This document shows positions 5,424 to 49,124 of a stretch of DNA of 62,311 nt, piece by piece. The notes under the pieces were generated by a model. That model saw only the letters and a list, made by a program, of their open reading frames with translations. It was not told the DNA's origin and did no database searches. The stretch lies in assembly GCA_020436935.1 (NCBI GenBank), contig JAGQWX010000029.1:1-62311 (forward strand), written 5' to 3'. Position 1 is the first letter of the stretch. The number at the start of each line of letters is the position of its first letter. Source of the DNA: Saprospiraceae bacterium. GTDB taxonomy: Bacteria; Bacteroidota; Bacteroidia; Chitinophagales; Saprospiraceae. Both the position numbers and the translations under genes were made by a program.

Positions 5424-5996
5424 ATGGAACAAAATTTAGGTAAAAATTTTTTAGAAAGTGCTGTAAAACAGTTCACTTACTATAGAATGTTGGGAGATAA
5501 AACTTTTGAACAGGTTTCCGAAGAAGCGTTGTTCTTTAAACCAGATCCGGGAAGCAATTCTATCTCTATCATCGTAAGGCATCTCAGTGGAAATATGTTG
5601 TCAAGATGGACAAATTTCCTTATCGAAGACGGAGAGAAAACCTGGCGAAAAAGAGATCAGGAATTTGAAGAAGGTTATAAAACCAAAGAAGAAGTAGTTG
5701 AAGCCTGGAATAAGGGTTGGGATTGTCTGATGTTGGCGCTTGATTCCTTAAAACCAGAAGATCTGCTTAGCATAACTTATATCAGAAATCAGGGTCATAC
5801 TGTGTTGGAAGCGATCAACAGGCAATTGGCCCACTATTCATACCATATTGGACAAATACTGTACATTGGCAAGATGTACAACAAGTCAGATTGGAAATCG
5901 CTGTCTATACCCAAAGGTAAAACCCTTGGATTTAATACAGAGATGTTTTCAAAACCCAAAGAGATCAAACATTACATCGACGATGAATTGATCTGA
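5424..5996 (+). CDS. DinB-superfamily protein (DUF1572 type)
   Basis: The 190-residue protein is all-helical with a likely metal-binding His triad: H53 (IIVRHLSGN), H137 and H141 (QLAHYSYHIGQ). That spacing and the SISIIVRHLSGNM block match DUF1572/DinB-like four-helix bundles. DinB relatives include thiol-dependent S-transferases and enzymes using bacillithiol or mycothiol. A YpdA-type bacillithiol reductase is present elsewhere in the window, so bacillithiol use is a reasonable guess only. It is convergent with the DUF2911 gene, with 14 bases between stops. Confidence 0.78.
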   Translation: MEQNLGKNFLESAVKQFTYYRMLGDKTFEQVSEEALFFKPDPGSNSISIIVRHLSGNMLSRWTNFLIEDGEKTWRKRDQEFEEGYKTKEEVVEAWNKGWDCLMLALDSLKPEDLLSITYIRNQGHTVLEAINRQLAHYSYHIGQILYIGKMYNKSDWKSLSIPKGKTLGFNTEMFSKPKEIKHYIDDELI

Positions 5997-8240: not shown

Positions 8241-9701
8241 CTATTTTCTATCTTCAAGAATTTTGAAGAGCATTCCCGACTCTACAACGTCTGAAAGTTC
8301 CATTCCGTTCAAAATGGCCAGGTCTTCATATTTTGAAGATGGCATGCCAAATTCTTTCAGGGCGTCCTGGAGAGAAGATCTGCGTTTAGCTGTTACGATC
8401 TTCACGCGAGTTGGCAGCTTATTGATTTTTGAGGCATCATTCAAAGATTTGAAGCTCGTCATTGTATTTCTAAATGCACCTGAGTAGCTATCAAATGTCT
8501 TTTTGTAACTGAGACCCGTGAATTTGTAGATGGCGTTATTGTATTTGATCAAATACACCAAAGCCCTGATTGGGTCGCCGGTCTGCCCGGTTGCCTGGTC
8601 CTGTGGAACTACATCTCCAAGAATTGCCAGAGCAGGTAATCCATTCACTGTTGTATTCGCTGATTCAATGACGTTTAAGCCATTTCTCTCAATTACGTTT
8701 TGCCCTGCGGCGTTTAGATCAGAACCTTGTTCCAATTCCAACATCATTACGGCATTGTTGTCCTTTGGAGCCATTTGGACAGCAGATGGTGTATTGGCAG
8801 TCTGCCAACCTCCGGGAACTGCAAACATAAATCTCATTTCCGGGTGGTAGAAAACATTATTTTCGAAATACCCCTGCCTTGGATCATCCCCATAAATGAT
8901 GCCGTTGATCTTTGTCAGGTACTCATTTCTCTTCACTTTTAACTGATCTGCAGTTAAACCCTTGGAAGCCAGAACGACATCAGTATACTCGTTGACTTTT
9001 GTGTACCTGTTTCCCGGGTCAGGGTGTGTGGATAAAAAGGTTGGAATAGAACCACCTTCTCCGCTGAGCTTTTGAAGAGTTTTGAAAAACCCTGCCATGT
9101 AGTGTGAATTATAGCCAATGGTCGTGGAATATTCTACGCCCAGTTTATCTGATTGTGATTCGTTGTCTCTTGAATATTTCAATAGCAAAACACTGGCAGC
9201 ATTGCTGGCAAGATCAGCGTATTGTCTGAATTGCTCGGAAGCAATCATACCTCCTATGAGCAGGAGTTGAGAAAACAGTTGTTTTGTCTGAATATCGTTG
9301 GCGTGCCTTGCAGTAATATGTCCTATTTCATGACCCAAAACGCCGGCAAATTCTGCTTCATTGTTGAAGTGTGCCATAATGCCTCTGGTGAAATATACAT
9401 AACCTCCGGGGACGGCAAATGCGTTAACCACGGGTGAGTCAACTATTTTAAACTCATAACCCAGGTTGGGCCTGTGTGAAATAGCTGCCATTTCCTGTCC
9501 TTTCTGTGTGATGAATGCCTGGAGGTCTTTGTCTTCATATATACCATAGGTGGCTATTATTTGAGGATCGCTCTCTGCCCCAATTTGTTTTTCCTGTTCT
9601 TCCGACATCAAACTGATTTCTCTCTTTCCAGTGACAGGATTCCTGGCACAAGAATTCAAAAAGATGATGGTTAGAAGGAGATAAAAAATTCTGTTATTCA
9701 T
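8241..9701 (-). CDS. M48-family metalloprotease lipoprotein
   Basis: The 486-residue protein has a lipoprotein signal (lipobox LNSC, Cys 18) and a peptidase M48 domain. Zinc ligands are H124 and H128 in HEIGH; the downstream ESQSD segment (181-185) supplies the third ligand. The SHRPNLGYEF, NAFAVPGGYVYFTRG and STHPDPGNR blocks match the BepA/LoiP-type envelope proteases that handle outer-membrane protein quality control. The C-terminal half (about 290-486) is a beta-rich extension ending in a short LysM-like segment (about 445-485), as in many Bacteroidota homologues. It is transcribed alone. Confidence 0.85.
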   Translation of the reverse strand: MNNRIFYLLLTIIFLNSCARNPVTGKREISLMSEEQEKQIGAESDPQIIATYGIYEDKDLQAFITQKGQEMAAISHRPNLGYEFKIVDSPVVNAFAVPGGYVYFTRGIMAHFNNEAEFAGVLGHEIGHITARHANDIQTKQLFSQLLLIGGMIASEQFRQYADLASNAASVLLLKYSRDNESQSDKLGVEYSTTIGYNSHYMAGFFKTLQKLSGEGGSIPTFLSTHPDPGNRYTKVNEYTDVVLASKGLTADQLKVKRNEYLTKINGIIYGDDPRQGYFENNVFYHPEMRFMFAVPGGWQTANTPSAVQMAPKDNNAVMMLELEQGSDLNAAGQNVIERNGLNVIESANTTVNGLPALAILGDVVPQDQATGQTGDPIRALVYLIKYNNAIYKFTGLSYKKTFDSYSGAFRNTMTSFKSLNDASKINKLPTRVKIVTAKRRSSLQDALKEFGMPSSKYEDLAILNGMELSDVVESGMLFKILEDRK

Positions 9702-30625: not shown

Positions 30626-33600
30626 TTAATATGATGTTACCATGATTTTTTCATAAAATAATTCGCCTCCGAATTTGTACTCCATGATGTAGATACCTGA
30701 TTCCATCTTTCCGAGTTCAATGGTTGTGCTGTTGTTTGCTCCTGTGCTTGTTTTCTGCAGTAATTTACCTGTTAGATCCATAATTTTGATGAAGCTATTG
30801 TCGTCCGTGCCCTGGACATATAATACATCCTGAACCGGATTTGGATAAAAGGTGATTTGTCTGTTTCCTTTAAAATTGGCAATGGCATATTTGCTTTGCT
30901 TCTGTTTCAAATCCAGATCTACCATATTCAAATAATAATAGTTCTCCCCCTGATAAGGAGATGCATCAAAAAACTGATATATGGACCCACTTCCCTTTGA
31001 AGGTATCTCTGCTATTTTTTTGAAAACTTTCCCATTGGCTGAATTATAAAGCTCAAAGTGAGAAAAGTTTTTCTCTTCTCCAGACTGCCATTTTACTGAC
31101 ACACCTTTAATTCCGGGAGTGGCGCCAAAACCACGAAGGTCTATTGGAACAACTTGGGCCTGCTCAACAAAATTGTTTTCAATGTCAGCCTCACCAATCA
31201 GCAGTCTTACAAAAACGGTATCGTTTACCATGACATCACCATCCATAGGGTCTCCGTCAGGGTCTTCGTCTTCATCCATCAGACTGTCGTATCCGTTTGG
31301 CTGGGTTTGTACAAGAATATAATTTCCAGGCGGTAAAAAATTGAATTCAAAGTAACCGTTGTTGTCGGTAAACTTCTCAGCAACATAATCAAGATTTTCG
31401 GTCAAAAGGGTGATTTTTACTCCTTCCAATGGAGTATCGCCAATTCCATTGTTGTCAGTATCAACCTTGACGTATCCACTGATAGAGCAATTCCTGATGA
31501 ATAGCCCTCCGGTCAGGATTTGGGTATTTTGGCATTTTGCAGGATCATTGGGAACATACTTTAAAATGATGGTGTAAGTTTGACCGGAAGTCAAACCTGC
31601 TGTGGTTGGATTGATTGATGTGATGTCTCTTAATGTATCGCCGGGCCCTCTGACAAAAGAGTAATAAACTGTGCCTCCTGAAGTACCGGAAAGATTTCCT
31701 TGTGGTAAATTGAAATCATAGTTACCATAACAAATCGTGTCTACCAAGTCCCCAGAAATTGGTATTTCAGGATAATAGCAATAATTGGCAATTGAAAGTG
31801 TTTTTCCGGTAACATCCTGTTGCAGCGTCACTGAGTAACCCAGGCTGTCGATGTGGAGAAATTCATAATCATAATGAGCTTCTCCATTCACGGCAGGTTG
31901 TTCAACCAAATAAGTGCCTAAAGGCACAGGAATAGGGGATGCAGGGTTGGCGGGGCTGCTTAATAAAAACATACCGGTTTGTGCGATAATTTTCCAGCCG
32001 TAGCCTGGTGTTGCATCAACAAATACAATTTCATCAAATCGGCCGTTGTAAGCATTGGTCGCATCATTACGACAAATACATGGGTCACCGATTTCACCGG
32101 TTGGTTCAAAATACCAGCCAACGTCCCAGGTAAGATCATTTTCGCCAGCTGATAGGGTAGTGGTAGCAGATTTAAGTGTATTTTTATCTATGTCAGAATC
32201 ACTGGCATCGCCAGGACTGGCTATATTTGATTTGGCTAGTTGCATTTTGGAATTTGGATGACTGGCCTTAATGTAATAATCATCTGGTGTCAAATTGTCA
32301 AATAAATAATAGCCATTCGCGTCAGTAGATTTTGTGCCAACGAGACTACCTCCACTTGTATAAAGGGAGATCGTGACATTTGCTGCAGGAGTTTCACCAA
32401 TATCCTGAAGCCCATTGTTGTTGATGTCATACCAGGAGTAATTACCAAGACTGGCTTGGCAGGGATTACATGTTGGACCTGTACTCTCTCCAGTTTGACA
32501 ACAGGTACCTGATTTGGCTGCAAACTCTATAGGACCTGTTGAAAGTTTGGAATTTGTTATGTATGTAAAAGTTTTACATGTGCCTTTTGTAACTCCAGTA
32601 TCCCATTTAAGACCGTAAATTCCACATGTTGGATCCGTATTTATGCTCCACCCTGTATAATTTGACCCATTGATTAAGACCTTTTTAATATCAGCAGAAG
32701 TGATACAATTGGGCAAACCAATTGTGAAATGGCTAAGATCTTTTGCACTGCTTTGCTGGCATACTTGATAAGAAAATGTGTCGACACACCCTGATCCTAA
32801 AAATGTGACATCTGTTACAGGAGCACAACATGGCGATAAATTACCTTCGAAAGTAGCGATATGAATCTCTCCACCTGTATGTATAAATGAATTTGCAATT
32901 ACCTGACCCTCGATGTTAGATGAATTGGTCTTATTTATATCAGCCTGAGGAGCAAGCAAACTACCTTCCAATGTAGCTCCAGATATGTTCAAAGAACTGG
33001 CTTCAAAAAAATTCCAAAGAATATATTTTGCTTCATTTCTGCCAATTCCCGAAAGGTTTGGAACATTAAAATTCCCATTCCCGCTTACATTTATAATTAA
33101 AGGTTTGTCTGGGCTTGGAGCAGTTTGAAAAGTAATGGTCTGAATAGAGTTAAGGTGGGAGAGTGATACATTCCAAATGTTGGATCCGCTGGCAAGTGTG
33201 ATTTTAGGATTCGTACTGCCTGGATCAAAGCCAGGGTTAACAGTATTGCCACATCCGGCATACAGCAATGAGCTTGAAATAAGGTTGCTAAATGCTCCCG
33301 AAAAGGAAAAAATATTCTTACCGCCAAGATTGTTGGCTGATTGTGAAGTATTGTTAATTTGCCAAATGAGAGTGTTTCCCCCCGTTTGCACCTTCACATT
33401 ACTACCGTCCTGATTGAAACTTAAGTTGTTCGTTGTCCCAATTTTTACGAGGGGGGCATTAGTAGGTGTATTAATGTTCGATTGAAACATTCCTGAAGTT
33501 CTTGATACTCCTCCACCAACTATCATCCTGTATTTTGAACTACCGATGAAAACATACGCGTCTCCTCCCGTACTGCCGCCAACATTTTGGCCTCCACCTT

Positions 33601-33769
33601 CAATCTGGAAATTCCCTCCAATCCCTATAGAGCCTTCGATGTCACCACTATTGATGGTGAAGTTTTGTCTGACCAATAAATTAAAGCCGATAGAGGCTTC
33701 CAATGGATTTTGAGCATACGAAATTTGTAAACCCAAAATACACAAAATGAATAGAACTGCTTTTTTCAT
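30626..33769 (-). CDS. T9SS-secreted surface protein: choice-of-anchor A, SdrD-like repeats, type A sorting domain
   Basis: The 1047-residue protein has a signal peptide (1-19), a choice-of-anchor A domain (about 22-305), and Cys-rich segments. Two SdrD B-like carboxypeptidase-regulatory domains follow: one at about 440-550 (GNYSWYDINNNGLQD...GYYLFDNLTPDDYYI), one at about 755-865 (SGYVKVDTDNNGIGDTPLEGV). It ends in a T9SS type A domain (about 970-1047, YPNPVQDVLYVQG...ESGIYIMEYKFGG). It is expected on the cell surface as an adhesin-like or structural protein. A terminator follows; the upstream 458 bases hold inverted repeats. Confidence 0.88.
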   Translation of the reverse strand: MKKAVLFILCILGLQISYAQNPLEASIGFNLLVRQNFTINSGDIEGSIGIGGNFQIEGGGQNVGGSTGGDAYVFIGSSKYRMIVGGGVSRTSGMFQSNINTPTNAPLVKIGTTNNLSFNQDGSNVKVQTGGNTLIWQINNTSQSANNLGGKNIFSFSGAFSNLISSSLLYAGCGNTVNPGFDPGSTNPKITLASGSNIWNVSLSHLNSIQTITFQTAPSPDKPLIINVSGNGNFNVPNLSGIGRNEAKYILWNFFEASSLNISGATLEGSLLAPQADINKTNSSNIEGQVIANSFIHTGGEIHIATFEGNLSPCCAPVTDVTFLGSGCVDTFSYQVCQQSSAKDLSHFTIGLPNCITSADIKKVLINGSNYTGWSINTDPTCGIYGLKWDTGVTKGTCKTFTYITNSKLSTGPIEFAAKSGTCCQTGESTGPTCNPCQASLGNYSWYDINNNGLQDIGETPAANVTISLYTSGGSLVGTKSTDANGYYLFDNLTPDDYYIKASHPNSKMQLAKSNIASPGDASDSDIDKNTLKSATTTLSAGENDLTWDVGWYFEPTGEIGDPCICRNDATNAYNGRFDEIVFVDATPGYGWKIIAQTGMFLLSSPANPASPIPVPLGTYLVEQPAVNGEAHYDYEFLHIDSLGYSVTLQQDVTGKTLSIANYCYYPEIPISGDLVDTICYGNYDFNLPQGNLSGTSGGTVYYSFVRGPGDTLRDITSINPTTAGLTSGQTYTIILKYVPNDPAKCQNTQILTGGLFIRNCSISGYVKVDTDNNGIGDTPLEGVKITLLTENLDYVAEKFTDNNGYFEFNFLPPGNYILVQTQPNGYDSLMDEDEDPDGDPMDGDVMVNDTVFVRLLIGEADIENNFVEQAQVVPIDLRGFGATPGIKGVSVKWQSGEEKNFSHFELYNSANGKVFKKIAEIPSKGSGSIYQFFDASPYQGENYYYLNMVDLDLKQKQSKYAIANFKGNRQITFYPNPVQDVLYVQGTDDNSFIKIMDLTGKLLQKTSTGANNSTTIELGKMESGIYIMEYKFGGELFYEKIMVTSY

Positions 33770-35168: not shown

Positions 35169-36764
35169 TTATTGCTTAATGAATGTTTTAACTATTTGAT
35201 ATTTTTCTCCGTCAACCCTAAGTACTAAGTAATAACTACCTGGTGTAAGGGCACGAACATCGAGACTACCATTGTCCAGTAATCTGCCGGATGTAATTTT
35301 TTGTCCAGTTCTGTCAAACAAGTCAAAGGAGAACTTTTTATTTTCCAGACTACTCACGATGAGTTCGTGTTGTGCAGGATTGGGGTACAACAGGATTTCG
35401 TCAGTGATTTGATCTTCAATACCAGTAGAAATCCTTGTGAATGTATAATTAAGTTCAGCAGTGCTACCAGACTCGAGTGCAATGCTTACTGTATCTGAGC
35501 CAAATTCAGGATGTGAGAAAACAATCTTGTAGTCAACATTTGGAGTTAAACCTATTTTATAACTCCCATCATTACCGAATCTTTCAATGTCTGTATCCAA
35601 TACTTTGATCATGCTTCCTTTGAGCGTGTCAATGACACCATTCGTGTTGACCAGGGTAGTTCCTGATAAATAGGCACCCTTTACATAGCTTGGTTGAAAC
35701 ACGAATAGTCCATTATTGATATCACTGACCAGCAATAAGCCTGATGGAAGATATGGATACGCACCCCAATCACCTAAAAACAGAGATCCAGATGCCGGCA
35801 ATGCTGTTGTATAGGTGTCATAACTGCCGACCTTGATGATATTGGCAGGATCAGAAACATCATTGATGATAACACCGTCCGTATACCAGCTGGTAATGGC
35901 AAAATCACCTAAAATGTGCGTGTTATGAGGAATCACTCGCGTATTACCAGGGTTGGTTTTATAGCGATCCAGAAATTTTATATTGCTAACATCGCTGATG
36001 TCGTAAGATTCCAAAAATCCAGAGGCAACTTCATCAGTGGTAAAGAGTGTTTTTCCGTCTGGAGAAGCCCATGCATTATGTGTAAAATTTCGACCGGAAC
36101 GGCCTCTGCCGATTTCAAGGGGATTGGATTTGTCGGTAACATCATATATTCCAAAGCCTGAACTAAGCTCTGAGCTAAACAATGTGTCATTCCTGACAAA
36201 TGCGTCATGTGAGTAAAACTCGTTGGTCGCACTCATGTAAACCGGATTGTTCGGATCTTGATTCAGGTCTAATATCATCACACCTCTCTTGCTGATGTTA
36301 TGACCTGATATATAAGCAAATCCTTTATTGTCAATAAAGAGATTATGGGCCCTTAAAAAACGGGCATTTGACCCACCAATGTTGAGTGTTGGTTTCCATT
36401 GTGTATGAGAAAATGTATCGGGAGCATTGGTAACATCTATAATGGTAAGGCCAAATGTATCCTGGTCGTGTGTAATGTAAAGATGATTGTTCCAATACTT
36501 GATATCCCGCCAAACTGAACGCGCTCCCCGAGCACTATATATGAGATGGATGTCAGATGTATCCTTAAGGCTATAAATTCTGGTTTCGCTTCGGGTACCT
36601 ATTACAGCATATTCATTGCCGTTTTTATCAACAAAGCCCCAGATATCGTTGCAATCTTCCTCAATATCCTCATGGTAAACGAGATTGATATTTGAGTTTT
36701 GAGCGAATAGCGAATAGTTTGCGAGCAAGAGTAAATAGCAAATTAAGTTTTTGAAATCCATCAT
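35169..36764 (-). CDS. Choice-of-anchor B protein with T9SS type A sorting domain
   Basis: The 531-residue protein has a signal peptide (1-21, ending FAQ) and a beta-propeller made of LVIVD-type repeats (about 30-365), including LTIIDVTNAPD, YDVTDKSNPLE, YDISDVSNIK and INDVSDPANI. A short beta-rich domain and a C-terminal T9SS type A domain (about 455-531, with LYPNPAQHELIVSS and a final YQIVKTFIKQ) follow. It is predicted surface-exposed; the propeller probably mediates binding. It lies 6 bases after lptE and 10 before dapB, which is unusual company for a secreted protein. Confidence 0.88.
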   Translation of the reverse strand: MMDFKNLICYLLLLANYSLFAQNSNINLVYHEDIEEDCNDIWGFVDKNGNEYAVIGTRSETRIYSLKDTSDIHLIYSARGARSVWRDIKYWNNHLYITHDQDTFGLTIIDVTNAPDTFSHTQWKPTLNIGGSNARFLRAHNLFIDNKGFAYISGHNISKRGVMILDLNQDPNNPVYMSATNEFYSHDAFVRNDTLFSSELSSGFGIYDVTDKSNPLEIGRGRSGRNFTHNAWASPDGKTLFTTDEVASGFLESYDISDVSNIKFLDRYKTNPGNTRVIPHNTHILGDFAITSWYTDGVIINDVSDPANIIKVGSYDTYTTALPASGSLFLGDWGAYPYLPSGLLLVSDINNGLFVFQPSYVKGAYLSGTTLVNTNGVIDTLKGSMIKVLDTDIERFGNDGSYKIGLTPNVDYKIVFSHPEFGSDTVSIALESGSTAELNYTFTRISTGIEDQITDEILLYPNPAQHELIVSSLENKKFSFDLFDRTGQKITSGRLLDNGSLDVRALTPGSYYLVLRVDGEKYQIVKTFIKQ

Positions 36765-45269: not shown

Positions 45270-46601
45270 ATGGTCAATTCTAAAAAGCTTGCTTATTGTA
45301 CCCTCACCGTTGCACTTTCGGGGTTTTTATTTGGCTTTGATACTGTAGTTATTTCGGGCGCTAACCAGCCCATCAAAGAACTATGGCAAACGGGTCCAAT
45401 ATTCCATGGGTTTTTTATAATGTCTATGGCCCTTTGGGGTACTGTATTTGGAGCCTTGCTTGGTGGAATTCCCACGGACAGGTTGGGTAGGAAAAAGACC
45501 CTCATCATTTTGGGTATACTTTATGCGCTTTCGGCAGTTTGGTCAGCTCTGGCTACTGATCCTTATTCGTTCTCGATCGCCAGATTTATTGGTGGCCTGG
45601 GGGTAGGGGCTTCTGCCATAACCGCCCCTGCTTACATTTCAGAAATATCACCTGCAATAAAGCGGGGTAAAATGGTCGCCTGGTATCAGTTTATGATTGT
45701 CTTTGGGATTCTGATTGCTTTCTTAAGCAATTACTTACTTAAAGGTGTTAGTGGGGCCAATGATTGGCGATGGATGGTGGGAGTTGAAGCAATTCCGGCA
45801 TTATTCTTCACGATCTCGATTTTGTTTGTTCCCGAAAGCCCCAGATGGTTGTTGGTCAATAAGCAAGACGAAGCCGGAGCTAAAAAAATAATGGGGGAGT
45901 TGGGTTTGGATCATTCTGATTTAGAATTAAATACAGTAGCATCCGAAAGAAAAGAAAATCTTTGGTCTGGCAAATACAAAAAGCCTATCATTCTGGCTTT
46001 TTTAATCGCTTTTTTCAATCAGCTTTCAGGTATCAATTTTGTATTGTACTATGCACCGGAAATTTTGGAAAGAGCCGGACTTGCAGCAAAAGAATCTCTA
46101 TTCAGTTCTGTTTCCATTGGCTTTGTGAACCTGATTTTTACGATCATAGGAATGAACCTTATAGATAAGTTTGGCCGTAGAACATTGATCATTATTGGTT
46201 CTTTTGGTTATATCATCAGTTTATCGATGGTTGCATTTGGCTTTTATTCGGGACAGGGGGCAAACTTCATGCTTGCATTCATCTGTTTGTTTATAGGTTC
46301 ACACGCAGTAGGGCAGGGTGCGGTGATTTGGGTTTATATTTCCGAAATTTTCCCCAATCAGGTGAGAGCAGCCGGGCAAACCATTGGGGTAGGCACGCAT
46401 TGGGTTTTTGCAGCGTTGATAACACTACTTACCCCCGTATTTCTTGACGCAAACACAGGTATTTTTAAAGAAAATCCATGGCCGATTTTTGTGTTTTTTG
46501 CAGCTTTTATGGGCTTACAACTGATTTTCGGATGGTTCTACATGCCGGAGACAAAAGGCAAGACTCTGGAGGAAGTGGAACAGTCTTTGATTGCGGGATA
46601 A
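45270..46601 (+). CDS. MFS sugar porter family transporter
   Basis: The 443-residue protein has 12 predicted transmembrane helices and the sugar porter signatures: GRKKT after helix 2, R-x-GG-LGVGA in helix 4, PESPRWL after helix 6, NQLSGINFVLYYAPEI in helix 7 and PETKGKTLEEVE at the C-terminus. Homologues import xylose, glucose or other hexoses by proton symport. It lies 77 bases after the SGNH gene and may belong to the same transcript; a sugar link with nagA or anmK is only possible. Confidence 0.92.
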   Translation: MVNSKKLAYCTLTVALSGFLFGFDTVVISGANQPIKELWQTGPIFHGFFIMSMALWGTVFGALLGGIPTDRLGRKKTLIILGILYALSAVWSALATDPYSFSIARFIGGLGVGASAITAPAYISEISPAIKRGKMVAWYQFMIVFGILIAFLSNYLLKGVSGANDWRWMVGVEAIPALFFTISILFVPESPRWLLVNKQDEAGAKKIMGELGLDHSDLELNTVASERKENLWSGKYKKPIILAFLIAFFNQLSGINFVLYYAPEILERAGLAAKESLFSSVSIGFVNLIFTIIGMNLIDKFGRRTLIIIGSFGYIISLSMVAFGFYSGQGANFMLAFICLFIGSHAVGQGAVIWVYISEIFPNQVRAAGQTIGVGTHWVFAALITLLTPVFLDANTGIFKENPWPIFVFFAAFMGLQLIFGWFYMPETKGKTLEEVEQSLIAG

Positions 46602-46636
46602 AAAAATGGTCTTTGCCCGCCCCTGAGCAAAGACCA
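46601..46636 (-). terminator. Rho-independent terminator of the B12-riboswitch gene
   Basis: On the minus strand a perfect 10-bp stem (TGGTCTTTGC / GCAAAGACCA, arms 46607-46616 and 46627-46636) is followed by six T residues. It ends the DUF4465 transcript and directly abuts the sugar porter stop. Confidence 0.88.
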
Positions 46637-46662
46637 CACTAAACGGATTTCAAGTCCAGGAA

Positions 46663-47628
46663 TCAATTCCTTATGAACTTATCGACAAATATACCTTGTG
46701 AAGAGTAAATTTTTGAAAAATAGACCCCCGTTTTTAAATTTGAAACGACAATTTGAACAGTTCCTTTACCAAGGACCTGTACAAGTTTGCCGCTTTGATC
46801 ATAAATTTCAACTTTTTCTATTCCATAATTTTGGTTTGCAAGAATGAGCTTGTCAGTGCTGGGGTTCGGATAAAAATGAACTGGCCTTTCTGAAGCGTTA
46901 CCCTTTGTTGATGTAGTAAATTCATAGCTGACATCATCTATGCAGAAATAGGCAGGTGTATTCATGCCAAACGCACCGTTGTCACTTGAGCTCAGCACAA
47001 AACTTAAACTGTCTATAACGCCAAACTCAAGTGGAATGAATTTCCAATCCTTCAGAATAAAATCTTCACTAGCGACCGCGGATCTGAAATCGGCCAAATA
47101 CACCTCCACTTCCTGATCCAGTGGTTTTCCGTCTTTTATAGCCCCTATGGTCAACTTGAAAAAATCAGGTTCTGATCCTGATATCCCACCAAATTTTTTG
47201 GCAAAGGCATCTCCGCTTTCCATGCTTCTGTAGGCGTAAGTAGAATTGGATATATGGATACCTGTTATACTTATGTCTTTATTGTCAATTGCCATGTAGT
47301 TCTTTCCTCCTGCAACATACGCAACTGCAAAAGTAGTCGACAGGTGGCCACGCCCGGCAATTGAACTCAGGTCGTTGGTAAAGCCTGCTGTAACAGAGTC
47401 TGTTTTGCTCGAGATCGCCCATCCACTCCATGCGCCCCACATTTCATTGTATTCATTGTTGAATTTGAAAAATGATTCCTGAAAAAAGCCTTCAGTGCCG
47501 CTATCGATCAAGGCAGTATCCTTTGGTAAATTAAAGCCTTCAAAGGACATTACATTTTGGCCCAAAAGCTGTACCTGACCCAAAATGGTCAAACACAAAA
47601 AGAGATAAAGAACTGTAAGTTTAGGCAT
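46663..47628 (-). CDS. DUF4465 protein with T9SS type A sorting domain, under cobalamin riboswitch control
   Basis: The real start is ATG 47628 (321 residues), opening a signal peptide (MPKLTVLYLFLCLTILG, cleavage near LLGQ). The body (about 25-240) fits DUF4465: NEYNEMWGAWSGWAISSKTDSVTAGFTNDLSSIAGRG-type blocks and a YFCIDDVSYE strand. Residues about 248-321 are a T9SS type A domain (FYPNPSTDKLIL...SNLKTGVYFSKIYSS). A cobalamin riboswitch lies in the leader and a terminator follows, so this gene is the only target. A surface protein for binding or scavenging corrinoids is the simplest reading; the ligand is not shown. Confidence 0.82.
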   Translation of the reverse strand: MPKLTVLYLFLCLTILGQVQLLGQNVMSFEGFNLPKDTALIDSGTEGFFQESFFKFNNEYNEMWGAWSGWAISSKTDSVTAGFTNDLSSIAGRGHLSTTFAVAYVAGGKNYMAIDNKDISITGIHISNSTYAYRSMESGDAFAKKFGGISGSEPDFFKLTIGAIKDGKPLDQEVEVYLADFRSAVASEDFILKDWKFIPLEFGVIDSLSFVLSSSDNGAFGMNTPAYFCIDDVSYEFTTSTKGNASERPVHFYPNPSTDKLILANQNYGIEKVEIYDQSGKLVQVLGKGTVQIVVSNLKTGVYFSKIYSSQGIFVDKFIRN

Positions 47629-47687
47629 AAACTCAATTTGCCGGAGTGGCACAATAGATCAAGGGCGTGTTTAAATACACCATTTGC

Positions 47688-47707
47688 TTAATCCATAACC
47701 TTCCTCC
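47688..47707 (-). promoter_or_regulatory. Strong Shine-Dalgarno with two-codon ORF in the riboswitch leader
   Basis: On the minus strand GGAGGAAGG is followed at 6 bases by ATG GAT TAA (ATG at 47696-47694, stop at 47690-47688). It lies between the riboswitch and the DUF4465 start and is out of frame with that gene. Such a strong Shine-Dalgarno is rare in this phylum. Confidence 0.45.
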
Positions 47708-47734
47708 GAGATTAAAAAATAAATATTAAGTCTG

Positions 47735-47893
47735 GCAAATGGCAGGTCTTCTGGCTCGTCTCCATTTTGACGCCTTCCCGGTATAGCCAGTGGCATAGTG
47801 TCAAAACGTTGTTTTTTAAGACTTACAGCAGCGGGGACTGCTCCGGTTTTTCACCGGATTCCCTTTTAATTCGGAATAATCCGAAACCAATTT
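47735..47893 (-). promoter_or_regulatory. Cobalamin (B12) riboswitch
   Basis: On the minus strand the conserved elements occur in order: hairpin TTCGGA-TTAT-TCCGAA, AAAAGGGAAT, stem CCGGTG/ACCGG, CAGTCCCCGCTGCTGTAAG, GCCACTGG, CCGGGAAGGCG and the 3' B12 box AGCCAGAAGACCTGCC (plus 47741-47756). This is the full core of a class I cobalamin riboswitch. It precedes the DUF4465 start by about 107 bases and begins about 25 bases after the stop of the upstream outer-membrane-like gene. High adenosyl- or methylcobalamin should switch the gene off. Confidence 0.95.
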
Positions 47894-47917
47894 ACAGCGG
47901 TAAAAATAAGAGAATAT

Positions 47918-48565
47918 TTATCGTCTGACTTGTTTTTGAAATGAAAATTGCAAGCCAGCCTTTATTTGATTCAATGTGGATGTGGGGCTGAGCAATAGAT
48001 CTTCATTAAGGACTCCGGTTCCAAATACAAAACCAATGAATGGCTGAACAGCTATGATTTTACCCAATGGTATTTTGACTCCAGCCTGGGCATCTACCAG
48101 GAGCTGAGATTGTCTTGAATGCGTGCTTTGTTGAAATGAATTATAGCTGGCTCCCAAAGATAGATTAAAACCTCTTGAGAATAAATTGCCTTCTTGATAG
48201 AAGGAAGGACAATCGCAATCGCCTTCCATATTGAATGGGAAAAATCTTAAACCCAAACCTGCCATTAGATTTGAAAACTTATAATAAGAAACGGGACTTG
48301 AACTTGTCGAAAATCCTGCAAACCCGTAATAATACATTTGCCTTTCTTTGTCAGGCTGTATAAAGTATCTTAGACCCAAACCATACGATGGAGCACTATT
48401 ATACAAAGTTGAAATACCGTTCACATCGTTTATGACCTTATTGTTCCAGTTGATGTAATCGTTATTTTCATACCGTGCTTCAACTTCGATTTGACCAAAG
48501 TTTGGAATGGCTAAAGAGGTAAATAGAAAGAAGAATATGTATGTAGCATATCGAGAAGCCATCAT
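47918..48565 (-). CDS. Hypothetical outer-membrane beta-barrel-like protein
   Basis: The 215-residue protein has a signal peptide (about 1-24, ending NFGQ) and an amphipathic beta-strand pattern typical of an 8- to 10-stranded outer-membrane barrel (SYGLGLRYFIQPD, LMAGLGLRFFPF, NLSLGASYNSF, VQPFIGFVFGTG). A CDC motif at about 117-119 lies in a loop. It ends AGLQFSFQKQVRR, with an aromatic near the C-terminus. No family is recognised. It lies immediately upstream of the cobalamin riboswitch on the same strand, so readthrough into the B12-controlled gene is possible. Confidence 0.6.
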   Translation of the reverse strand: MMASRYATYIFFFLFTSLAIPNFGQIEVEARYENNDYINWNNKVINDVNGISTLYNSAPSYGLGLRYFIQPDKERQMYYYGFAGFSTSSSPVSYYKFSNLMAGLGLRFFPFNMEGDCDCPSFYQEGNLFSRGFNLSLGASYNSFQQSTHSRQSQLLVDAQAGVKIPLGKIIAVQPFIGFVFGTGVLNEDLLLSPTSTLNQIKAGLQFSFQKQVRR

Positions 48566-48599
48566 TGAGTTTATGTTAAGCTATTTATTAACGGAATAT

Positions 48600-49124
48600 C
48601 TACTTTTGAAAATATCTTTCATGCAAAATTCTTTTGTGGTATATCTGATGGCCAATGATTTGAAAACCAAGTGCTGGAGCGGTGATTGGATTTCCATTTG
48701 CATTGCCTACCCTTAATAAGTCTTCCTCAGACATAGATTCAAAGAGTTTAATCACCGACTGCCTAACCAGCTGATGTTCTTCTAAAAGATCTTCAAGAAA
48801 GCGCTCATTTGCGTGATGGTGACTTGCAAGCACATCCTGATCATATCCAGGCAAGACAGTAGTATCACCTCTCGAAATTCTCAAAGCCCTGTAAGATTGA
48901 ACTCTGTCATTATCAGTGAGGTGTTGAATCACTTCTTTAACCGTCCACTTTCCCGGGGCATAAGCAAAATCCTCAAACTCCTTTACCAAGGCGATTTCTT
49001 CCTCTGTAAATATAGGTGTGTGTAATCTGAAGGCATCCATGAGGGAAAGGTCCTCTACCAGCAGAATATATCTGTCAAAAAATGCTGGCATAGGATCGAT
49101 GTCAGAAGTATAAAATTTCCACAT
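48600..49124 (-). CDS. DinB-family protein
   Basis: The 174-residue protein is a helical DinB bundle with a likely metal triad H68 (WTVKEVIQHLTD), H159 and H163 (IIGHQIYHKRIL). The family includes thiol S-transferases that use bacillithiol or mycothiol, and nucleases are not indicated. It is distinct from the DUF1572-type protein at 5.4 kb. A -7 box lies 20 bases upstream. It precedes the outer-membrane-like gene by 34 bases on the same strand. Confidence 0.85.
   Translation of the reverse strand: MWKFYTSDIDPMPAFFDRYILLVEDLSLMDAFRLHTPIFTEEEIALVKEFEDFAYAPGKWTVKEVIQHLTDNDRVQSYRALRISRGDTTVLPGYDQDVLASHHHANERFLEDLLEEHQLVRQSVIKLFESMSEEDLLRVGNANGNPITAPALGFQIIGHQIYHKRILHERYFQK

Follow-up and report, generated by a model that had tools for sequence, protein, structure and literature searches.

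A complete cobalamin riboswitch precedes a single gene on a 62,311-nucleotide contig of Saprospiraceae bacterium (JAGQWX010000029.1, assembly GCA_020436935.1; hereafter the window); the gene encodes a protein with a DUF4465 domain and the sorting tail of a type IX secretion system (T9SS). Very probably this is a B12-repressed gene for a BtuJ-type B12-binding protein, which would be carried across the outer membrane by the T9SS, contact cobalamin through Tyr131 and Tyr227, and hand it over to an unlinked BtuB. The riboswitch, the gene layout, the fold, the pocket tyrosines, the T9SS tail, the presence of SprA, the unlinked btuB, and the association seen in relatives were all computed here. The family and its function are known already; the new parts are delivery by the T9SS and a B12 regulon of one gene.

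The riboswitch matched the cobalamin model of Rfam, RF00174, over its full length (positions 1-189 of 189) at 47906-47724 on the minus strand, with 121.7 bits against a gathering threshold of 31.5 (E = 5.1e-30). It is separated by 95 bases from the ATG at 47628. A second model, R1, was built from 33 related riboswitches; the window riboswitch scored 132.3 bits, a match by construction given that the window row is part of the model. In the 33-row aptamer alignment, compensatory changes, each present in one row or more, were seen at 14 of the 26 predicted pairs. Following the B12 box, a hairpin with a loop beginning CGG was present in 63 of 71 leaders (the window included), versus 4.9 expected from shuffles preserving only single-base composition, although the window hairpin has a 6-bp stem unlike the common one. 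Together, the compensatory changes and the leader hairpin argue that the switch works and belongs to the type that precedes btuB. Leader comparison suggests that the hairpin, with its CGGAGGA loop, may be the expression platform. The direction of control reported for B. thetaiotaomicron is repression by B12 (PMC8941943), and the window gene is likewise expected to be repressed. A leader mini-ORF (ATG GAT TAA after GGAGG, 47707-47688) was considered and rejected: the GGAGG falls within the loop of the hairpin that 63 of the 71 leaders share, and was thus taken as part of the riboswitch. By eye, the leader at locus L163 has a short ORF at the same place too. Fold prediction of single leaders was not used as evidence of mechanism.

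The reading frame runs on the minus strand from the ATG at 47628 to a stop ending at 46663, and the transcript is closed by a 13-bp hairpin and T run (-20.5 kcal/mol). Because the downstream neighbour, an MFS gene (45270-46601, plus strand), is convergent and the upstream neighbour (47918-48565, minus strand) stops 11 bases short of the riboswitch model, the riboswitch unit contains one gene. In the 5.8-Mb assembly, only one RF00174 match and one DUF4465 match were found; they are adjacent and in the same direction, which is not chance. No btuB or btuF was detected in the four neighbours scanned with Pfam, and a btuB profile built from 27 relatives had no match on the contig of the window. An earlier, sequence-only reading of this DNA had described the full core of a cobalamin riboswitch, a single 321-residue gene with DUF4465 and T9SS type A domains, and a closing intrinsic terminator, all of which were borne out (121.7 bits in Rfam for the first; ORF, Pfam and NCBIfam agree on the second). 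It had placed the riboswitch within 46601-47893, which is right as to the minus strand but falls 13 bases short of its upper limit at 47906. Its statement that no btuB or btuF is adjacent holds for the four neighbours, and makes the window an exception, btuB being the usual neighbour. The features are collected in the table.

Table. Features of the riboswitch unit in the window, with the evidence for each
Feature	Position	Strand	Evidence
Complete cobalamin riboswitch aptamer (RF00174), P1 through B12 box	47724..47906	-	cmscan, 121.7 bits
Hairpin 3' of B12 box, CGGAGGA loop, 6 bp; presumed expression platform (P13/L13-like)	47696..47714	-	Leader comparison
Gene for exported DUF4465 (BtuJ-like) protein, 321 aa	46663..47628	-	ORF, Pfam, NCBIfam, AlphaFold2
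Signal peptide, residues 1-23; predicted mature start Gln24	47560..47628	-	Sequence reading, model helix
DUF4465 B12-binding beta-jellyroll domain	46930..47442	-	PF14717, Foldseek
Tyr131 codon, counterpart of BtuJ1 Tyr146, DE-loop helix; predicted B12 contact	47236..47238	-	phmmer alignment to 9fct
Tyr227 codon, NTPAYF motif, counterpart of BtuJ1 Tyr245, HI loop; predicted B12 contact	46948..46950	-	phmmer alignment to 9fct
T9SS type A C-terminal sorting domain	46672..46872	-	PF18962, TIGR04183, model
Intrinsic terminator, 13-bp hairpin then T run	46600..46637	-	Fold, -20.5 kcal/mol

DUF4465 is the BtuJ family, and the window protein matched its profile (PF14717) with 152.6-154.3 bits against a cut-off of 25. 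Protein searches and the AlphaFold2 model used residues 2-321, omitting the first Met; residue numbers here are those of the full 321-aa chain. The model (mean pLDDT 93.2) displays the augmented jellyroll fold of the family. The best nine PDB matches in Foldseek were all DUF4465 proteins, with TM scores by target length of 0.57-0.79, and included the B12-bound structures 9hmu (E = 8.7e-16), 9qpm, 9fct, and 9i2l. By sequence, six distinct solved chains matched at E <= 1e-5, all of them DUF4465 entries by title and two of them BtuJ1. B12 binding has been reported for eight divergent DUF4465 members with identities down to 16%, including one from Fluviicola taffensis (six of the eight had been chosen for good expression), along with the B12-bound crystal 9HMU (PMC13398666). 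The same account names Y146 in the DE-loop helix and Y245 in the HI loop of BtuJ1 as conserved B12-binding tyrosines, and these align with Tyr131 and Tyr227 of the window protein.

The conservation of both residues was followed in relatives. From a larger group, 298 genomes of the window's order were drawn; the loci fetched from them (L033-L112) contain 80 DUF4465 genes, not counting partial short matches (gene pieces and contig-end scraps), and 78 of the proteins were aligned (A2), with L053 and L098 left out because contig ends cut them. The Tyr131 column contains Tyr in 68 of the 78 rows, and the Tyr227 column Tyr in 69, with Phe in the other nine. On the strength of sequence and model, the window protein is expected to bind B12.

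The same protein is predicted to leave the cell by the T9SS. In the alignment, the column of Gln24 is Q in 71 of the 78 rows; by the Q-rule of the Bacteroidetes (PMC5837995), the mature chain would begin with this Gln. A loose lipobox pattern had no match in the window protein. Its C-terminus scored above both curated cut-offs for a T9SS tail (PF18962 Por_Secre_tail, 48 bits, cut-off 27; TIGR04183, 46.6 bits, cut-off 23), and Foldseek matched the modelled tail to C-terminal domains (CTDs) in T9SS complexes (8gl6_D, E = 7.7e-4; 8gl8_D, 8.6e-4; 8glk_D, 1.1e-3). SprA, the T9SS part searched for, was found in the window genome with 1989.5 bits, so the cell can probably export T9SS cargo.

Among the 78 aligned proteins, 70 have the tail according to Pfam; the eight that lack it all fit the loose lipobox pattern, and their chains extend 4-7 residues past the domain. 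The pattern also matches three tailed proteins (L067, L071, and L084), so the mutual exclusion of tail and lipobox is near-complete, not absolute. A broader named set, L163-L242, consists of the best 80 of at least 555 confirmed candidates ordered by likeness to the window protein, an order that favours T9SS-tailed members. It overlaps with the order set (L165 = G031, L170 = G286, L241 = G294, and L163 lies in G298), and its titles name Saprospiraceae, Chitinophagales, Bacteroidales, Flavobacteriales, and others. All 80 of these loci matched our own tail model, which was derived from the same kinds of tails; Pfam is an independent test for the 78 only. Elsewhere in the window, the same model marked two more proteins with T9SS-type tails (30626-33769, minus strand, 43.3 bits; 35169-36764, minus strand, 34.1 bits).

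DUF4465 occurred in 77 of the 298 sampled genomes (221 had no match) and RF00174 in 261, including 73 of the 77; most such riboswitches thus serve genomes that lack the gene. Neighbours were counted when a riboswitch lay upstream of the DUF4465 gene, or a btuB beside it, on the same strand and within 8 kb. The sequence-only reading had staked its case on an association of homologues with B12 riboswitches or B12 genes, and such an association was found: 71 of the 80 genes had a riboswitch, 67 a btuB, and 61 both. Two layouts were common: riboswitch-btuB-DUF4465, and riboswitch-DUF4465 followed (often after a T9SS protein of ~335 aa) by btuB and btuG in either order. In the window's own family, btuB directly precedes the DUF4465 gene in 29 of the 30 other sampled genomes that have it; the exception is G294, and the btuB of G256 is cut by its fragment. 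The nine order-sample genes without a riboswitch fall into three kinds: four (L047, L052, L055, and L082) are close to the end of a contig or fragment; three (L106, L109, and L110) encode divergent lipoproteins in genomes that carry their riboswitches at other places; and L036 and L062 have btuB and room, with no riboswitch found there, also at Rfam E <= 5 (L149 and L150). In the named set, the riboswitch model detected a riboswitch in 75 of the 80 loci, three of the matches being cut by the contig start (L181, L213, and L224); upstream sequence is short in L182, L218, L226, and L232, and in L166, where it is ample, none was found.

Two btuB-like proteins from these loci were tested and matched the TonB plug domain; their best NCBIfam match was TonB-B12, at 66.4 and 70.1 bits, far under the cut-off of 599.7. 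The btuG-like proteins matched DUF5074. One of these was compared with the PDB; the solved chains that it matched (best E = 3e-40) are entered there under putative surface layer protein or YncE family protein, and are taken to be BtuG.

The ~335-aa protein belongs to an uncharacterised family with a T9SS tail (alignment A6; motifs FAVFENGF, EVSSDG, and NLAGKY) found near DUF4465 in B12 riboswitch operons, at 47 loci, among them L040:4426-5442 (minus strand); 27 of these belong to the 80 in L033-L112 and 20 to the 80 in L163-L242, two sets that may overlap. The one member scanned had no Pfam domain and no solved relative beyond its tail, and a known fold for the family was rejected (pLDDT 77.2; TM by query length at most 0.24 among the 50 PDB matches listed). 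It is a candidate for a new part of B12 uptake. Separately, G163 carries a tandem pair of DUF4465 genes, each with its own cobalamin riboswitch (L080:7788-10793).

Other genomes also have a riboswitch-DUF4465 unit with no same-strand btuB within 8 kb: G294, G217, G034, and G243, and perhaps G116, where the contig is short. A looser split form was seen in G191 (a 491-aa gene in between) and G110 (btuB on the opposite strand); the loci of G121 and G160 are cut. In the first five genomes the best btuB match lies elsewhere, and a search of all five btuB loci with R1 gave no riboswitch, the best chance matches being 9.5 and 6.8 bits (E = 1.4 and 7.5). As G217, G034, and G243 have three RF00174 matches each, the capture gene there is not the sole switched one. 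None of these split cases joins the window protein and its closest relative in the protein tree, whose bootstrap had not settled; loss of btuB from behind the switch, with the catcher kept, has probably happened more than once. Two further observations were made in these genomes. In G294 the unit is followed by a PhoX-like protein with a T9SS tail (L081:9037-10959), and the btuB locus of G116 contains three near-gathering Flavo-1 RNA matches (L148:2094-2202, 5778-5866, and 8549-8659; 39.3-41.8 bits versus 42).

In the window genome, btuB was located at G000:C126:128425-130224 (L143:7962-9806) with 456.5 bits; eight other matches scored 61.4 bits or less. A diverged riboswitch before this btuB was sought and rejected, none being found in the 17.8-kb locus L143 with all of Rfam (E <= 5) or with R1 (E <= 10). 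Within the assembly, the one B12 riboswitch that was detected would therefore control nothing but the capture protein. The genome encodes a 1267-aa open frame of MetH size with a B12-binding domain (PF02310) and had no MetE above the cut-off; CbiC was not found in any of the eight genomes searched. On these grounds B12 from outside is probably needed. At the closest relative among the matches listed, L163 (46% identity), the upstream neighbours are the same and the unit again has one gene; in the tree, this relative and the window protein group together with support of 99/96.

The proposed order of events is as follows: when intracellular B12 is low, the riboswitch would leave the gene on, and the protein would be made with a Sec signal peptide and exported by Sec. 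Its C-terminal tail would then direct it through the SprA translocon, after which it may be held at the surface or released. The loops of the jellyroll would form the pocket that grips cobalamin, and Tyr131 and Tyr227 would be among the residues that touch it. Finally, the cobalamin would pass to the BtuB transporter, encoded elsewhere without a riboswitch.

The alternative that survives best concerns the place where the protein works. It may act as a protein cobalophore, scavenging B12 in the medium or on vesicles without being tethered to the cell; we consider this possible but rather unlikely. A siderophore-like role has been proposed for vesicle-borne BtuJ of B. thetaiotaomicron (PMC12751083), which makes a released form plausible, and the window gene is uncoupled from btuB. 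On the other side, the gene occurs with btuB in 67 of the 80 relatives, favouring a partner at the cell surface. A bolder form of the same idea can be put forward tentatively: that the protein is a secreted cobalophore and that the catcher has taken the place of the transporter under B12 control. The genome's one detected riboswitch would then switch a T9SS-exported binder working alone, without BtuG, and feeding an unregulated BtuB, and most DUF4465 proteins sampled in the order would be T9SS cargo.

That the protein is a periplasmic B12 carrier with a vestigial tail is improbable. Such a place would agree with the published account, in which lipoproteins are predicted for more than 70% of the family and periplasmic targeting signals are assigned to the rest (PMC13398666); the main text of that paper does not mention T9SS, type IX, or a sorting domain. 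But a tail that exceeds both curated cut-offs, resembles CTDs from T9SS complexes, and is kept in 70 of the 78 rows, in a genome with SprA, argues for export. Among the open-access papers listed in our literature searches, we found no description of non-lipoprotein DUF4465 members as T9SS cargo. One paper that treats both type IX secretion and a cobalamin riboswitch places the riboswitch, in its excerpted text, before a TonB-dependent transporter (PMC9723704).

Still less probable is that the jellyroll has another ligand and that the riboswitch indicates no more than regulation by a shortage of B12. The N-terminal loops of DUF4465 proteins vary (PMC13398666), and the branch of the window protein is long (0.91 changes per column versus a median of 0.29, and 0.35 for L163); however, all eight family members reported on bind B12 (PMC13398666), the pocket tyrosines are kept in the window protein and most rows, and the DUF4465 gene sits with btuB across the order. 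Finally, the one-gene layout is hardly an artefact of fragmentation hiding an adjacent btuB, for although the assembly is in 181 contigs (97.4% complete), the unit lies ~14.4 kb from the nearer end of the 62-kb contig and is followed by a terminator and a convergent gene, L163 has the same upstream neighbours and layout, and btuB is located inside another contig of 178 kb.

Several points weigh against a B12-repressed, T9SS-exported protein that serves BtuB. Repression by B12, B12 binding, T9SS export, and hand-over to BtuB are all steps that we infer. The riboswitch starts 11 bases past the stop of the upstream gene, and no promoter of the form TTG-spacer-TAnnTTTG was matched in 47600-48600, where a lone TAnnTTTG stands at 48162. 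The long branch of the window protein may reflect relaxed constraint. Unlike in most relatives, the putative partner btuB is unlinked and has no detected riboswitch; BtuG was not found in the window genome at E = 1e-8, although it was found in each of six other genomes searched. MetH was recognised by size and the PF02310 match only, and a MetE-like match below the cut-off exists in a 366-aa frame (47.7 bits versus 929.95). The genome of L163, whose completeness is uncertain, had no clear btuB (best 66.8 bits). A genome of the same genus as the window, G176, had no DUF4465 match and carries riboswitch-btuB-btuG.

The significance of the T9SS-exported BtuJ-type protein lies in where a known domain is found. 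A B12-binding domain, behind a riboswitch of the kind already known for BtuJ, appears to travel the type IX route in most DUF4465 proteins sampled in the order, and the family is present in about a quarter of the sampled genomes of the order (77 of 298). If this is true, B12 capture would be a regulated task of the T9SS, and the periplasmic reading of the non-lipoprotein members would be corrected. The one-gene case parts capture from transport, presenting a catcher with no co-regulated BtuB and no BtuG found.

Comparison with solved proteins and known systems places the window protein as follows. The best solved match was D5EK51 of Coraliomargarita akajimensis (9HMU, B12-bound; sequence E = 7.9e-27, fold E = 8.7e-16); that organism is distant, and the match spans the domain but not the T9SS tail. 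Fluviicola taffensis is a member of the Bacteroidota outside the gut genera. Its protein Fluta (F2I9N3) is also a DUF4465 protein that binds B12 (PMC13398666). The sequence-only reading had tentatively linked DUF4465 to B12-binding proteins, a link that is indeed published (PMC13398666), and had named BtuH for comparison; the relatives are BtuJ1 and BtuJ2 instead, and BtuH is another family. Membership in BtuH was rejected, no chain of that name being among the seven sequence matches or the 14 fold matches at E <= 0.001. BtuH2 of B. thetaiotaomicron is a B12-binding accessory of B12 uptake with a different domain; in the excerpted text its fold is described as having no known structural homologues, and DUF4465 is not named (PMC8941943). 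The earlier proposal of corrinoid capture stands insofar as the function is expected from the BtuJ family, in which eight members bind B12, but it is not a new function. Published accounts describe BtuJ, BtuH, and BtuG as lipid-anchored and as belonging to gut Bacteroides (PMC8941943, PMC12751083); PMC13398666 extends DUF4465 to further phyla, yet there too the members are given as lipoproteins or as bearing periplasmic signals. With BtuJ1 and BtuJ2 of B. thetaiotaomicron (DUF4465, IPR027828), the window protein shares the domain, the fold, the two B12 tyrosines, and, by prediction, control by a cobalamin riboswitch; whereas the BtuJ proteins are lipoproteins encoded in btu operons, the window protein has a predicted signal-peptidase-I leader and a T9SS tail, and its gene stands alone behind the riboswitch.

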